DNA from: an uncultured bacterium
GTDB taxonomy: Bacteria > Oederibacteriota > PGYV01 > Palsa-1178
NCBI GenBank assembly: GCA_937889595.1
Contig: CALAOR010000077.1
Coordinates: 62,001 to 126,000, forward strand
Length of the DNA: 64,000 bases
Direction: 5' to 3'
A program made the position numbers and the translations under genes. Positions within the stretch are counted from its first letter, which is position 1; the number at the start of each line of letters is the position of its first letter. Below are positions 10,134 through 55,416 of the stretch, one piece after another. Below the pieces are notes generated by a model. It saw only the letters and a list, made by a program, of their open reading frames with translations. It was not told the origin of the DNA and ran no database searches.

Positions 10134-11917
10134 TTTACCACATACAACTTCCCTATATATCTGTGGCCATCCGGGGTTTTAATGACGTAATAATAAATCC
10201 CCGGGGAAGCTTTGGAACCGTACACGTTCCTCCCGTGCCATATCTCATTGATACCGGATGCATTAATATTATACACAAGCTCGCCTGACAATGAGTAAAT
10301 TTGAATGAGAGTGCCGGCAATCAGGTTGCTGAATTTCAAAGTTCCGTTTACCGCTGTATCCGGGTTGAAAGGGTTGGGGTACACTATGGGCATATGTTCA
10401 GGGTAAAAACAAGTTGCCGAACATATAGCGGGGTGCCTTGAAGGCATCGTAAAATAATTGTCGTTATAATCACACCACGCCCTGTTTTCTATGGGGTAAT
10501 TGCCGTTATAGCTTGTCATTTTAGTCCTGATGTAAACATACGCAACAGTTCCTGCCGTGACAAGCGGCAGCATGAAGGAAACATAATTTCCCGTCACTAC
10601 AGGCGCAACTGCGGCTGAGTATCCGCTGTATATCACCTCTACCGGCAGAGTGTCCCAGATTATGAGGTTTGTTGCGTCCTGAAGCGTGTCATTGCGCACG
10701 GTTATTTTAAATGTCACATCAGCCCCTATTTCAGGCTGGTCCCCGGTCGCTGATTTTTCTATCTTAAGGTCGGCTGGCACAGCTGTTGTAGTCTGGGTTA
10801 TAGTCGGCGTACATATGATTGTGCAGGTCACGGTTATTGTAGGAGTGCATGAAGACGTGTCATTCGGCGTCTCTGAGGGTGTAAAAGTCGGAGACATCGG
10901 GCTTACGCCGCAGGAATACCAGACGTCATCGAATGAATTCCCTCCCCATCCGCCAAGTACCCATAACATGTTATTATAAACGAGCCCCTGTGTCTGCCTC
11001 TGATCGAACTGCGCGGCCGGAGTCCTCTGCGTCCAGTTTACACCATCGCTGCTTGCCCAAACGTCATTTAGCCGGTTAATTGAGCTGTCCACTCCGCCTA
11101 CAACGTATATCTCGCCATTATAAACATAACAGGCAAAATCCTGCCTCGGCGTGAAACCCGCGTTAGCCGTCTCCATGGTCCAGGTCACACCGTCATTTGA
11201 CGACCATACGTCATTAACATCGTTAGAGTAACCATTTTGAGTTTGGCCTCCAATTATCCACATCCTGTCCCCTGTGCCGCCGTTAAAAACCACGGCGCCG
11301 ACACAACTCCTCGGCGAAAATGCTGCGCTTGCAGTTGCTTGTGTCCATGCCACACCGTTAGTGGACCACCATACGTCGTTTGTCATGCCGTATGGGGTCG
11401 ATTCATTATGATTACCGCCAATGACCCACATCCTGTTATTATAAGACAGGGCGGCCATGCAATCTCTAATCGGAAAATTAGCGTTGCCTGTGGCAATAAA
11501 CCAATCTGCGCCATTGCTTGAATGCCAAACATCATTTACTGTTATACCGTTGCTATCGCCGCCTATTATCCACATTTCAGCATTATATGTGACATAACCC
11601 GGGTAAGATCTGCCTATAAATGCTGTGTTTAATGTCGCAGCGTACCAGTCAGCGCCGTTTGTCGACCACCAGGAGTCCATGTGATGGGGATAAGCATTTC
11701 CACCGCCTGAAACGATCCACATTTTATTATCAAAAACATATGATGCCTGGGCATGCCTTGCGGGAAAATCCGCGTTTAAAGTCGCGCCGTTCCAGTCAAC
11801 GCCTATTGCCCCTGTACAGGAGGGCGGGGCAGCGCTGCAAATGGAAGATAACAACATAGTTATAAGCATTGAAAGCAGAATAATAAATATATTTGGTTTT
11901 AAAATATTTGCTGTCAA
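10130..11917 (-). CDS. Secreted six-kelch propeller protein with DUF11 and YPNPFNP C-terminal domain
   Basis: A surface or secreted protein. After an N-terminal signal segment come six kelch-type repeats of about 50 residues (pattern: aromatic-rich start, MW(I/V)(I/V)GG, NDVW-S-DG, W), together about residues 40-350. A Thr/Pro-rich linker, a DUF11-type repeat (IEKSATGDQPEIGADVTFKI) and a C-terminal FlgD/Ig-like domain beginning YPNPFNPD and ending GIYYYVIKTPDGHRYIGKLY follow. The TTG at 11917 is chosen because AAGGGTGA lies just upstream; the ATG at 11938 is 7 codons longer but has no ribosome-binding site. YPNPFNP tails are sorting signals in type IX secretion bacteria; whether they are here is unknown. 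Confidence 0.85.
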   Translation of the reverse strand: MTANILKPNIFIILLSMLITMLLSSICSAAPPSCTGAIGVDWNGATLNADFPARHAQASYVFDNKMWIVSGGGNAYPHHMDSWWSTNGADWYAATLNTAFIGRSYPGYVTYNAEMWIIGGDSNGITVNDVWHSSNGADWFIATGNANFPIRDCMAALSYNNRMWVIGGNHNESTPYGMTNDVWWSTNGVAWTQATASAAFSPRSCVGAVVFNGGTGDRMWIIGGQTQNGYSNDVNDVWSSNDGVTWTMETANAGFTPRQDFACYVYNGEIYVVGGVDSSINRLNDVWASSDGVNWTQRTPAAQFDQRQTQGLVYNNMLWVLGGWGGNSFDDVWYSCGVSPMSPTFTPSETPNDTSSCTPTITVTCTIICTPTITQTTTAVPADLKIEKSATGDQPEIGADVTFKITVRNDTLQDATNLIIWDTLPVEVIYSGYSAAVAPVVTGNYVSFMLPLVTAGTVAYVYIRTKMTSYNGNYPIENRAWCDYNDNYFTMPSRHPAICSATCFYPEHMPIVYPNPFNPDTAVNGTLKFSNLIAGTLIQIYSLSGELVYNINASGINEIWHGRNVYGSKASPGIYYYVIKTPDGHRYIGKLYVVN

Positions 11918-50407: not shown

Positions 50408-51958
50408 TTACCTTCCGAGCTGAACGAGCGTGGTCAACATTTCTGAAGAAACTGTGACTATCCTCGCGTTTGATTCAAAACCTCTCTGCGCGATAATCAT
50501 GTTTGTAAGCTCTACAGACAGGTCGACATTGGACGCTTCAACTGACGCGCCTATCGTTGTTCCCATGCCTGCGCTTCCTGCTTCGCCTACCTGCGGTAAA
50601 CCTGAGTTTGCCGACTGCATGAATTGAGTACCGCCCACTTTCGTAAGTCCCTGGGGATTGGAAAATCTGGCAAGGGCAAGCTTGGCCATTATAACGATCT
50701 GGTTATTGCTGAACTGCACATTTAGCCCGCCGAATTGATCGACTGAAAGCCCGGTTAATGTGCCCTCGCTGTAGCCGTCCACAAAAGATGTGTAAATAGT
50801 CTGCTTAGGTATATAAACATTGGTTACCGGGTCTATCTGACCGGCTCCAAAATCGCCGGTAATGCCGTCACGCAAGCCTAACGCAGTTGCAAGGGGGAAA
50901 CCATTTGGCGTCCCGAGGTTTACCGAAATCGTCTCGCCTACAGGGTTATTTGCTCCGTCAAGAAGAGCTACTGGGATCAATATAACGTCATTGGTCGGAA
51001 CAGGAGGAGCTCCGGCAATAGGGCCGCCGTTTGTAGCCAAAGACCCGTCTCCGTTGAAAGTTACTTGGTTAGTGCTGTGCCCTACATAGGTACCTGAAAC
51101 CTGGCCCGGAATAGCAGGAGCCGCCGCGGCAATCGGAAGCCCTCCGGTGGTATCATATGCAGCCCATGTCCAGGAAGCAGGACCGAGGGGCATTGGATTA
51201 ATCTGATACCATAAGAATGTGATGGTATGAGCATTACCAAGTGAATCATAGACTGTTGAAGAAGTTTGTGCCGATGGTGCGGTTCCCAAAGCCGGATAAG
51301 CGCCGGCAAGCGGAGCACCCGCATTAGCCGGGGTCAGGGAGTCAAGGTTACCTTTAAGTTGAATACCCTGGTCCTTTATCGCAGGTGAAAGGTTTAAACT
51401 GGTGGCTTTGGGGCCAAGCACCAGGTTCTGCGGGATCTGAATATTGCCGTACGGCACGGATGTGTTTATGGGAAGCGTCGGGGTTGATGTTATACTCGCC
51501 GGCCCCAGTGCTATCGTGCCACCACGAACAAAGGGCATTTGCCAGCCCTGAACCAAAGCTCCGTTGGAAGCTACCAAGTTGCCTGCGTTGTCGAAGTAAA
51601 AGTTGCCTGCGCGCGAATATGTGGTGACATCCCCCGCTTTTTCAATGAAAAATCCCTGGCCCTGAATTGCGACGTCTGTCGGGTTGCCCGTGGTCTGGAT
51701 CGCGCCCTGTGTCATAATCGTGTCTATAGATCCCAGTACCGAACCGAGTCCCATCTGTTCCGGGTTTATTCCGCCGAGGTTTGCCAGTGAATTGGCGCCT
51801 GAAGCGGAACCCATGGTCTGTGAAATGGCTTCCTTAAAAGTTATCCTTGAATCCTTGTAACCTATCGTATTTACGTTTGAAATGTTGTTGCCGATTACGT
51901 TCATCCATGTCGTATGGTTCTTAAGTCCCGATACGGAGGAGAAAAGTGATCCCATCAT
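50408..51958 (-). CDS. flgE: Flagellar hook protein FlgE
   Basis: A 516-residue hook subunit from the ATG at 51958, preceded by AGGAGCG at the right distance; the open frame runs 14 codons further up into a hairpin. The N-terminal rod/hook signature is GSLFSSVSGLKNHTTWMNVIGNNISNVNTIGYK, and the C-terminal one is SNVDLSVELTNMIIAQRGFESNARIVTVSSEMLTTLVQL (quoted in parts). The middle contains the FlgE D1/D2 elements NFYFDNAGNLV and the GNLDSLTP segment. It is longer than the enteric homologue because of extra outer domains rich in Pro/Ala. It closes the hook operon. Confidence 0.95.
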   Translation of the reverse strand: MMGSLFSSVSGLKNHTTWMNVIGNNISNVNTIGYKDSRITFKEAISQTMGSASGANSLANLGGINPEQMGLGSVLGSIDTIMTQGAIQTTGNPTDVAIQGQGFFIEKAGDVTTYSRAGNFYFDNAGNLVASNGALVQGWQMPFVRGGTIALGPASITSTPTLPINTSVPYGNIQIPQNLVLGPKATSLNLSPAIKDQGIQLKGNLDSLTPANAGAPLAGAYPALGTAPSAQTSSTVYDSLGNAHTITFLWYQINPMPLGPASWTWAAYDTTGGLPIAAAAPAIPGQVSGTYVGHSTNQVTFNGDGSLATNGGPIAGAPPVPTNDVILIPVALLDGANNPVGETISVNLGTPNGFPLATALGLRDGITGDFGAGQIDPVTNVYIPKQTIYTSFVDGYSEGTLTGLSVDQFGGLNVQFSNNQIVIMAKLALARFSNPQGLTKVGGTQFMQSANSGLPQVGEAGSAGMGTTIGASVEASNVDLSVELTNMIIAQRGFESNARIVTVSSEMLTTLVQLGR

Positions 51959-51990
51959 GTTAAGCCACGCTCCTATTTTTTTGTTTTTCC

Positions 51991-52011
51991 AGCCGCGCAT
52001 TAGGCGCGGCT
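51991..52011. other. GC-rich hairpin between the TIGR02530-like gene and flgE
   Basis: AGCCGCGC (51991-51998) pairs with GCGCGGCT (52004-52011) over a 5-nt loop. On the minus strand no T-run follows, so it is not a standard terminator. It could stabilise the processed flgE mRNA or reduce read-through from upstream genes. Confidence 0.5.
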
Positions 52012-52080
52012 GTTACAGAGGCTTCCGCTTTACTGAAAGTAAAACAGTCCGGCCTCATATTACCGCTCCCAAAAGTCTAA

Positions 52081-52485
52081 TCACGCGAAAACCGCGCTGT
52101 CAATATTGGTGAAGACATTTTCCTTCATGCCGCTTTTGTCCACAGCGGTGATCACGGTGTTGTTCTTAACGCTTACGATAAGGGAGAAATTATCAAAGAT
52201 CATAAGCGTTTCGTTCGAGCCTTTTTCCTTTGCCTTTGATACCGCGTTTTTTAGCCTCTGCATGATCTCGGGGGTCAGCTCTATATCACGTGAAGCGAGC
52301 CTTTTCTCCGCATGTGAGGAAAACTTGATCGTGGTATCATTGGCGGCTACCGTACCGTTTAAAACCTGCTTAAAAGAAGGCGTATCCGGTGTAACAACAA
52401 TATTAGCAACATTTTGCTGTATGCGCTGCGCTTCCTGCAGCTGTGATAACTTTTGTATCTGGCTGTTGCTTACGTTATTTACCAT
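52081..52485 (-). CDS. Flagellar operon protein, TIGR02530-like
   Basis: A 134-residue protein with the pattern of the small conserved flagellar protein found between flgD and flgE in many flagellar operons: FKQVLNG, IKFSSHAEKRLASRDIELTPEIMQRLKNAVSKAKEKGSNETLMIFDNFSLIVSVKNNTVITAVDK (quoted in parts: FSSHAEKRLASRDIELT; NNTVITAVDK). Function is not established; a hook-assembly helper is assumed. Located 15 nt after flgD. Confidence 0.85.
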   Translation of the reverse strand: MVNNVSNSQIQKLSQLQEAQRIQQNVANIVVTPDTPSFKQVLNGTVAANDTTIKFSSHAEKRLASRDIELTPEIMQRLKNAVSKAKEKGSNETLMIFDNFSLIVSVKNNTVITAVDKSGMKENVFTNIDSAVFA

Positions 52486-52500
52486 GTTTACACCTCCTTA

Positions 52501-52995
52501 TTAAGCACTGATCGACTTGATACTTGCAAGTCCGTACGTGACTCCGTTTACGATGATCTTAGGCTGTCCGCTAACGAACGTTACCACTGAAACCGGTCCT
52601 GTGACATCCGGGCCGGGGATTGAAGCTCCGCTGCTGTCTACTGCAGTGGTTGATATCGTTACCGTCTTTCCGATCAATCCAGCTGCCTGGGTCGTGTTCT
52701 GCATCATCATCAAAGCCACTATGTTCGTGTTAAGGTCCTGCAAAGACACTGTCTGGGCCGACGCTGACGTGTTCAAGCTCTGCATCTGTTCGAGCGATGA
52801 GAACTGGGCCAATTCCGCTGTGAAAGCTGCGTCATCTACCGGGTTCGTAGGGTCCTGGTTCGCGAGCTTTGTAACCAACATCTGCAAAAACTCATTCTTT
52901 CCCAGCGAAGCATTCGGATTCGCAACCTGGTCAGTTGTTGCGGTTGATTTTGTTACATACGCGCTGCTGGTTGCTGTTACTGGTTGTACCGCCAT
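52501..52995 (-). CDS. flgD: Flagellar hook capping protein FlgD
   Basis: A 164-residue hook cap. The N-terminal signature [42 protein letters not shown] is intact (quoted here in parts: [26 protein letters not shown]), followed by GLIGKTVTI. It is short: the C-terminal FlgD/Ig and tudor-like domains of longer homologues are mostly missing. It lies 23 nt after fliK. Confidence 0.93.
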
Positions 52996-53018: not shown

Positions 53019-55280
53019 TTAAGCTAAGTAGTTAAGGTAGCCGTCGGCATTGACGAACGAGTCAATGCCGGTTTCTATATTTTCCTGGACTATAGTTTGT
53101 TGTGCCGATCCCTGCCACTGTGAAAAATTTTGCCTGCCATTGTCCTGGAAAGCCGATCCCGTATTTGAATTGGCCATGGATATGTCAAAATTATTTACCG
53201 TCATGCCTATATTGCTTAAAGCGGCCCTTAATTCGGGAAGATTGGCCCTTAACGTATCCCTGACCGAGTCATTGGTTACGAGTATGCTTCCCTTTATCCC
53301 GCCGCTTGTATGCTCGAGACTTATATAAACGCTGCCGAGGTTTTCCGGCTTCAGGACCATCTTTATTTCATTAACTTTTGACGCATTTGATGAATCATTG
53401 ATATTTGATACCACCTGCCTTAAGACAATCTGTTCCTTGATAGAATTTGCAAAATCAGCCACCCTGTCAAATATGGCCTGTTTATCCGTGCCAAGAGCTG
53501 CGGCGGCTTCATTGCCGAGAGCGGCTGGTTTAATGATGTTATCAGATACCCAGCGTACATCGGAAATAAGGTTTTTGGACGGTGCGTCCTGGGTTGATTG
53601 CCCAAGTTTATCATATAATACTTTAGTGGCTGTCTGTACCGCTCCCACTGTCACTGCGTCCGCAGTTTTTAAGGGGGTCAACAGGTTTTCAACAGCACTG
53701 CTGTCCGGCTGCGTCTTCAGGGTAACTGCCTGGGGCTGGACAAATGCTGATTGCGCTATATTTGCATTTATCTGGGCAGGCTGCCCGGCCGCTGATTGAT
53801 TGTCCGCCGCCTGAATATTCAAAACCTGGTCATTATTAACCGCGGTTACAGGCAAGGACTGCGGATTTGCAGCTAAAACTTCCTGTGCGGCTTTTACCTG
53901 CTGGAAAGACGGATTATTTACCGCAAGCTCTAAAGCTATATCCGGCCTTGAAGCATAAACCTGTTTATTGGCCACGCTTAAAGAGCCATTGAGTTCATTA
54001 AGCAGTATAACGATCTTCGCAACTATACTTTTGATATCCTGCGGCTGGTTTGAAGCAACAACAGTGTATTTCCCGCCCGAAGTGTTTTCCCGGTTGTTCT
54101 GTGACGAAAGGCTCAATGCCATGCTATTTATTTCCGCTGAATTATCAGCGGAAATTACTGCGGCCTGCTGTAATCCGGTTGATACCGCACCGGGAACAAC
54201 CGCTACCAGGTCATTAAGTCTTGATATGAGTTCCTTTAATGTGTCTTTAACCGCGGATGCCTTTGCCGGATCAGGAATGGCTGACGTGAGCGTGTTTATG
54301 ATTTCTTCGATGTTTGCTTTCAAGGGCTGGATTGTTTTCACGGCATCCAGGACCGCATTTGCAGGATCATTGGAAACCAGATTGTCATTAACGCCGTTTA
54401 CCGTAGGATTTGATTTTGAAATTAAAATTGAATTTAATGCATTTTCAAGTTTCCCGGTTAAATCAAGAACCTGGCCGGCAATTTCCGCTTTATCCGTTGT
54501 AGTTACGGAAATTGGAATAATCTTATCCGCAGTTCCCGCCGTTTTAACATCATTTTGAGAAACACCGTTTGCCGGGGTTTTGGATGCCACAATCCCAATG
54601 CTTACGCCGGTATCATTAACGGCCGCATCATAATTCAATGGCGATACAACAACTGCGGAATTCAGCGCTTCAAAATCAGCTGAAATTTGAATTGTGTTTA
54701 CGGCTGTTGTTTTACCGGATGTTGAGGCTATATCCGACGATACCGCCGTGTTCACAGGCGTTTGAACTGCCGCAGTTGACGCGGATTGTCCTGATAATGA
54801 AACTCCCGGATTTACAGGGATTGATTTTGTGAATGATACGGCATTGTCTAATGCCTGCGTATTGGATGAATTATTGTTTGCGGCTCCGCTTAATACTATT
54901 TCAATTGCGGTTGCTTTAAGCGCCCTTAAAAATACGGTCCTTTCAGCGGATGAAAGGTTGTTATTTTGCATTATGCTTGAAACGATCATGTCTTTGCCGA
55001 TCGCCGACGGCTGAAGCGTTGCTATATTCCCGATATTGCCGTTCAGATTTATGATCGAAGCCGCCTGATAAAGCGCTAATTTAATTTTTTCATTGGCCGA
55101 AGCATCAAGTGCCAGTTTCGTATTTTCTTTTGATGTTTCAGTCGTGAATAAATTTGATATAAAATCCTTAAAATTATTTGATCCGGGATTTACATTTGGA
55201 GTGTTTTGGGTATTGCTCCCGATAAGCGCGGGCATACCGATAGAAGCTGTAATGTTCGCATTTACTATAGGATTGACCAC
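53019..55280 (-). CDS. fliK: Flagellar hook-length control protein FliK
   Basis: A 753-residue ruler protein. Most of it is a low-complexity Asn/Ala/Ser/Val-rich region; the C-terminal FliK domain has EIKMVLKPENLGSVYISLEH, GSILVTNDSVRDTLRANLPELRAALSNIG (quoted in parts). The start is a GTG at 55280 with CGGAGGAT 6-7 nt upstream. It has its own consensus promoter and a ~100-nt structured leader inside the operon. Longer than typical FliK, which may correspond to hook length. Confidence 0.88.
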   Translation of the reverse strand: MVNPIVNANITASIGMPALIGSNTQNTPNVNPGSNNFKDFISNLFTTETSKENTKLALDASANEKIKLALYQAASIINLNGNIGNIATLQPSAIGKDMIVSSIMQNNNLSSAERTVFLRALKATAIEIVLSGAANNNSSNTQALDNAVSFTKSIPVNPGVSLSGQSASTAAVQTPVNTAVSSDIASTSGKTTAVNTIQISADFEALNSAVVVSPLNYDAAVNDTGVSIGIVASKTPANGVSQNDVKTAGTADKIIPISVTTTDKAEIAGQVLDLTGKLENALNSILISKSNPTVNGVNDNLVSNDPANAVLDAVKTIQPLKANIEEIINTLTSAIPDPAKASAVKDTLKELISRLNDLVAVVPGAVSTGLQQAAVISADNSAEINSMALSLSSQNNRENTSGGKYTVVASNQPQDIKSIVAKIVILLNELNGSLSVANKQVYASRPDIALELAVNNPSFQQVKAAQEVLAANPQSLPVTAVNNDQVLNIQAADNQSAAGQPAQINANIAQSAFVQPQAVTLKTQPDSSAVENLLTPLKTADAVTVGAVQTATKVLYDKLGQSTQDAPSKNLISDVRWVSDNIIKPAALGNEAAAALGTDKQAIFDRVADFANSIKEQIVLRQVVSNINDSSNASKVNEIKMVLKPENLGSVYISLEHTSGGIKGSILVTNDSVRDTLRANLPELRAALSNIGMTVNNFDISMANSNTGSAFQDNGRQNFSQWQGSAQQTIVQENIETGIDSFVNADGYLNYLA

Positions 55281-55286
55281 AATCTA

Positions 55287-55381
55287 TCCTCCGCACTTCA
55301 GGCCTTCCTTGCGGTCCAGGCCATCAGTCTCACGGGCAATCGGCCCGTTTAAAACTTGTATCTAAAGACTATTGCTTCAAC
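55287..55381 (-). promoter_or_regulatory. Structured 5' leader of fliK with interleaved helices next to the ribosome-binding site
   Basis: The predicted transcript from the upstream promoter begins near 55381. Hairpin I: ACGGGC/GCCCGT (55348-55343 with 55337-55332). Helix II: GGCCT/AGGCC arms at 55322-55318 and 55305-55301. Helix III: CCGCA (55314-55310) with TGCGG (55295-55291). II and III interleave, so they are either exclusive or an H-type pseudoknot, and the TGCGG arm abuts and overlaps the GGAGG ribosome-binding site. A small open frame, ATG 55324 to TGA 55298 (MAWTARKA), lies in the same stretch. I recognise no known riboswitch class. Confidence 0.45.
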
Positions 55382-55387
55382 AAGACA

Positions 55388-55416
55388 ATTATACAAAACC
55401 TTACTTGAACTGTCAA
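55388..55416 (-). promoter_or_regulatory. Full-consensus sigma-70 promoter upstream of fliK
   Basis: Minus strand TTGACA (55416-55411), 17-nt spacer, TATAAT (55393-55388): both hexamers exact. It lies between fliJ and fliK and divides the hook/basal-body operon. Confidence 0.85.

Follow-up and report, generated by a model that had tools for sequence, protein, structure and literature searches.

Because FliK governs hook length and the export switch, its dose relative to hook protein matters. Ribosomal-protein-type autogenous leaders carry a small conserved hairpin beside the Shine-Dalgarno (SD) sequence and occur in one gene context. The c-di-GMP-I riboswitch contains a GNRA-capped hairpin. 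This riboswitch (RF01051) has been described upstream of the flgB operon of Clostridioides difficile (PMC6200980, PMC11477304), and CsrA-FliW controls translation of flagellin mRNA (e.g. PMC4894983).

Here we analyzed a window of 64,000 nt from the flagellar cluster of a draft genome in 93 contigs (G000). The nearest named relatives of this genome are metagenome assemblies that carry the labels candidate division FCPU426 and Candidatus Goldiibacteriota. The leader of fliK, on the minus strand of the window, appears to be an undescribed cis-regulatory RNA candidate. A search of open-access papers about fliK leaders and structured-RNA screens turned up no fliK leader RNA or motif of this kind. 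A search against Rfam 15 gave no match in the window at the gathering score and chance-level matches only at E up to 10; six relatives gave no match at E up to 2.

Results

Promoter and genes of the proposed fliK unit

In the direction of transcription, fliI and fliJ lie upstream of the leader, and fliK, flgD, the gene of a small flagellar operon protein, flgE, flbD and a motA-like gene lie downstream. Pfam confirmed FliI, FlgD, the small protein, FlgE and FlbD, as well as FliJ (PF02050) and FliK (PF02120), whose genes flank the promoter and leader. The order fliK, flgD, small protein gene, flgE is kept in all six relatives with a contig covering the block (G003, G004, G005, G007, G009, G011). 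The fliK orthologues start with GTG in 10 of 11 genomes and, by inspection, with TTG in one; none appears to start with ATG.

A reading made earlier from the sequence only had described an exact TTGACA-17-TATAAT between fliJ and fliK, and a GGAGG site before a GTG-started fliK. Both were found. TTGACA lies at 55416-55411 and TATAAT at 55393-55388, the single exact match in the window against about 0.016 expected from base composition. TTGACA with a 17-nt spacer stands before fliK in 11 of 11 genomes, where the -10 element is TATAAT, TATACT or TAGAAT and the promoter score is 11-12 of 12. The best explanation is that fliK, flgD and flgE are transcribed as a separate unit, with this stretch as its promoter and 5′ leader. 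Transcription from this promoter would yield a structured leader of about 100 nt, from about 55381 to the fliK GTG (Table 1).

Two more near-consensus promoters (11/12, 17-nt spacer) were seen on the minus strand of the window at 49879-49851 and 62002-61974, at the 5′ end of the flbD ORF and upstream of the first rod gene, respectively.

Table 1. Features of the fliK leader and its proposed transcription unit in the window
Feature	Position	Strand	Basis
Promoter TTGACA-17-TATAAT; predicted transcription start near 55381	55388..55416	-	Exact 12/12 match
Hairpin A, ACGGGC-CGAUU-GCCCGU, pentaloop consensus NGAWU	55332..55348	-	Covariation
Hairpin B with basal stem P1 (ACU/AGU, 3 bp in the window)	55295..55328	-	Complementary arms
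Hairpin B core, GGCCU-GGA-CC-GCAA-GG-A-AGGCC (P2, 3x1 internal loop, P3 with GNRA loop)	55301..55322	-	Conservation
Anti-start sequence GACCGCAA, part of hairpin B	55309..55316	-	8 bp with UUGUGGUC at 55282-55275
Start-codon region UUGUGGUC, holds GTG at 55280	55275..55282	-	Pairs with 55316-55309 in the alternative fold
SD sequence of fliK, CGGAGGA	55287..55293	-	Sequence
fliK, GTG start	53019..55280	-	PF02120, E 5.5e-16
Hook genes flgD, flagellar operon protein (PF12611), flgE, downstream of fliK	50408..52995	-	Pfam

Distribution of the leader

We sampled the order (FCPU426/Goldbacteria lineage) with 14 genomes, of which 11, from five families, yielded the region upstream of fliK. The core GGCCNGGACCGCAAGGNNGGCC occurs exactly once per genome in 11 of the 14, and it is present in all eight genomes with a completeness of 90% or more and a contamination of 5% or less. 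In the other three genomes fliJ was not found, so the upstream region is apparently missing there rather than shown to be without the core. The core lies directly before fliK in 11 of 11 genomes, and within the order it occurs nowhere but in front of fliK or a paralogue of fliK. G007 (L110) keeps the leader even though the stretch examined shows no recognisable fliJ ahead of fliK.

The exact core had no match in the genomes searched outside the order. We also ran a covariance model of hairpin B (R1) against 384 genomes. Strong matches, 45-53 bits, were restricted to the order. The best match outside reached 30 bits, and the sequence around five of these matches held nothing leader-like; they were judged to be chance. 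A one-mismatch core pattern matched 12 of 397 further genomes, including G005, a yield close to that of the reversed control. Families elsewhere in the phylum have a shorter distance between fliJ and fliK, mostly 4-72 nt, and showed no such leader.

The exact hairpin core was also present in one GC-rich phage contig (L177 of IMG/VR, 10187-10208, minus strand), directly upstream of an ATG-started ORF. A single exact core in the viral contig search is about what chance allows, though its position is notable.

G003 has a second R1 match (46 bits, L161:3818-3857) before a fliK paralogue. In this copy GCAA is changed to GUAA, which is still GNRA. The copy starts near the predicted transcription start and comes without the promoter. 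This copy and the second fliK-like gene lie within 3700-4955 of L161 (G003:C26:43000-47954). The opening codons of a flgD-like frame precede the copy, and a short ORF resembling flgD and a gene of the flgK type are close by.

Hairpins A and B

The leader alone folds only modestly better than shuffled sequences (z = -2.1), so the case is decided by conservation among the relatives and not by single-sequence folding. The one stable hairpin of the sequence-only reading is hairpin A, at 55348-55332. It was found in 10 of 11 genomes and is absent in G011. Five of its six pairs have changed on both sides, and the stem bases differ widely between families with pairing kept. The covariation score of hairpin A is 0.905, compared with 0.323 for shuffles and at most 0.214 for slid controls.

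Hairpin B is made of the basal stem P1 and the core. The P1 arms vary by family and are complementary in most (CCGGC/GCCGG, CCGAA/UUCGG, UUGC/GCAA, AGAA/UUCU). When arms were permuted between representatives, 6 of 720 permutations scored as high; none of 2000 shuffles did. P1 is weak in the window and absent or 2 bp long in G007. The invariant core GGCCYGGACCGCAAGGNNGGCC is a GNRA-capped stem, and 19 of 22 core positions are the same in 11 genomes from five families. Its consensus is GGCCY/RGGCC for P2, GGA/R for the internal loop, and then CC-GCAA-GG. One P2 pair covaries (U-A, U-G or C-G), while the other four P2 pairs and both P3 pairs never vary. With so many fixed positions, covariation is limited to this one pair and says little on hairpin B itself. 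Taken as a whole, the leader has covarying, conserved structure upstream of one gene type, which is the pattern of a structured cis-regulatory RNA.

This contrast between the two hairpins bears on a rival explanation, in which the leader is constitutive and the promoter and hairpins set basal translation or mRNA stability with no signal. Such a leader would fit the strong consensus promoter and the stable hairpins. A passive hairpin, however, needs no invariant 22-nt core, and hairpin A shows that a stem may drift with its pairing kept. We regard a constitutive leader as rather improbable.

Leaders of family f3 (G005, G013, G010; L114, L115, L116) can form a further helix, UUUAGC/GCUAAA or similar, around hairpins A and B, which gives a three-way junction.

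Interleaved helices and the short open frame

Two interleaved helices had been proposed to form a pseudoknot over the SD region. Helix II (GGCCT/AGGCC, 55322-55301) is present and kept across the relatives, and one of its pairs covaries. Helix III (CCGCA/TGCGG) is perfect in the window, and certain relatives form some of its pairs too. Among all relatives, however, only 50% of its cells are paired, close relatives have TTCGG, TACGG or GACGG, and no compensatory change was found. The conserved element is a GNRA-capped hairpin rather than a pseudoknot, and control of the SD sequence by helix III is very unlikely.

Attenuation by a leader peptide is a shade less credible still. The 8-codon frame on which it was based (55324-55298; ATG GCC TGG ACC GCA AGG AAG GCC TGA) is in the window, and the same or a similar short frame occurs in G001 and f3. 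It has no counterpart in G003, G002, G004, G009, G007 and G011, and no ATG-started matching frame was found in G003, G002, f2, f5 and f4, so the frame is not conserved among the relatives. There is also no terminator-like site between the leader and fliK. Without the pseudoknot and the peptide, the broader proposal of a separately promoted, RNA-controlled fliK/hook block is still supported, by the promoter and leader across five families, by covariation and by retention of the leader without an adjacent fliJ.

Complementarity to the fliK ribosome-binding site

The ribosome-binding site and start codon of fliK have a complement in the 3′ half of hairpin B. Pairing of GACCGCAA with UUGUGGUC is 8 bp in G000, G001, G005, G013, G010 and G011, 7 bp in G003 and 6 bp in G002. 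A complement of this type is absent in G004, G009 and G007. Because the core is unchanged in these three genomes, the complement cannot be what conserves it. There, CCUCC-GCAA(A)-GGAGG would mask the SD sequence and overlaps P2 as extended in these leaders.

An 8-bp loop complement was reached by 19 of 3000 shuffles for the window and by 1 of 3000 for G011. In most of these genomes the 3′ half folds more stably with the true ribosome-binding site than with shuffled ones: 2-15 of 500 shuffles were as good in seven of eight genomes of f1, f3 and f4, and 45 of 500 in G003. The pairing shows no compensatory change, the G003 paralogue has it only weakly, and GTGGTC also serves as coding sequence. 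As a competing pairing, the predicted start-codon/SD pairing is better supported than CCGCA/TGCGG. A pseudoknot in which P2 is kept and the loop pairs with the start codon is conceivable.

In thermodynamic predictions, the 3′ half can pair with the ribosome-binding site once the 5′ arm of P2 is blocked. Predicted SD accessibility fell on blocking P2 in 10 of 11 leaders, slightly in G001, and went the opposite way in G002. With P2 blocked it dropped lower than with any upstream control block in 8 of 11, although these controls are an imperfect match for the release of a C-rich arm beside the SD sequence. Competing folds are predicted for the leader on thermodynamic grounds; in a riboswitch such folds would be mutually exclusive and would affect expression.

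Discussion

We put the probability at about 0.5 that the leader is an order-specific cis-regulatory RNA that acts as a translational switch of fliK. Hairpin B would be the conserved sensor-like core. When it is formed, its 3′ half would be tied up and the fliK ribosome-binding site would be freer. We take this as the ON state because formation of hairpin B frees the site in the predictions. When hairpin B is opened, GACCGCAA and the adjoining CCU-type sequence would pair with the start codon and SD sequence (OFF). In families f2 and f5 masking would be by a CCUCC/GGAGG hairpin. Whatever favours one fold, be it a ligand, a protein or another signal, would then set FliK translation and thereby the hook gene block. 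A sensor with an expression platform would be expected to show this combination of an invariant core and a masking sequence that differs by family. Either a small molecule or a protein could be the signal.

The same core may instead be bound by an RNA-binding protein, perhaps in autogenous control, that acts on the ribosome directly by blocking or recruiting it, with no alternative fold needed. The GGA internal loop and CC-GCAA-GG are invariant while the flanking expression sequences differ by family, f2 and f5 keep the core without the start complement, and P1 is close to the SD sequence in most members. Against this, complementarity to the ribosome-binding site is above chance in f1, f3 and f4, and the only obvious candidate protein, CsrA, is absent. 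No csrA (PF02599) was found in any of the 14 genomes of the order, while the E. coli, B. subtilis and T. maritima controls were positive, which excludes CsrA as a general answer. We hold direct protein control to be a lesser possibility than the translational switch.

The leader could represent a new riboswitch class, or a protein-sensing leader that is the first of its kind, dedicated to the hook-length ruler and tuning FliK and hook apart from the basal body by a fold that masks the SD sequence and start codon. This stronger claim is tentative and on the unlikely side. Were it true, FliK and hook synthesis would be tunable apart from basal body synthesis. The fliK leader of this order looks like a predicted on/off control element for hook making. 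It offers a compact RNA family candidate, open to testing, in a lineage with little experimental work, and its two predicted folds allow a specific mutational test.

Comparison with known systems

Like the c-di-GMP-I riboswitch, the fliK leader is a leader RNA before flagellar genes with a GNRA-capped hairpin, but its architecture differs. RF01051 gave no match in the window and none in the 14 genomes, the latter a weak absence as no control genome matched. CsrA-FliW likewise exerts translational control of a flagellar gene through a GGA-bearing leader RNA; in the fliK leader, however, the GGA sits in the internal loop of a fixed core, in an order without CsrA. Ribosomal-protein-type autogenous leaders resemble it in the small conserved hairpin adjoining the SD sequence and in the single gene context, whereas the fliK leader would regulate a flagellar hook ruler and any protein binding it is hypothetical. 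Compared with translational riboswitches and orphan candidates, its core is small, it has one gene context only, and its switching and ligand are proposals. It shares with them a conserved core, a family-specific expression platform, a sequence complementary to the ribosome-binding site and a single gene context.
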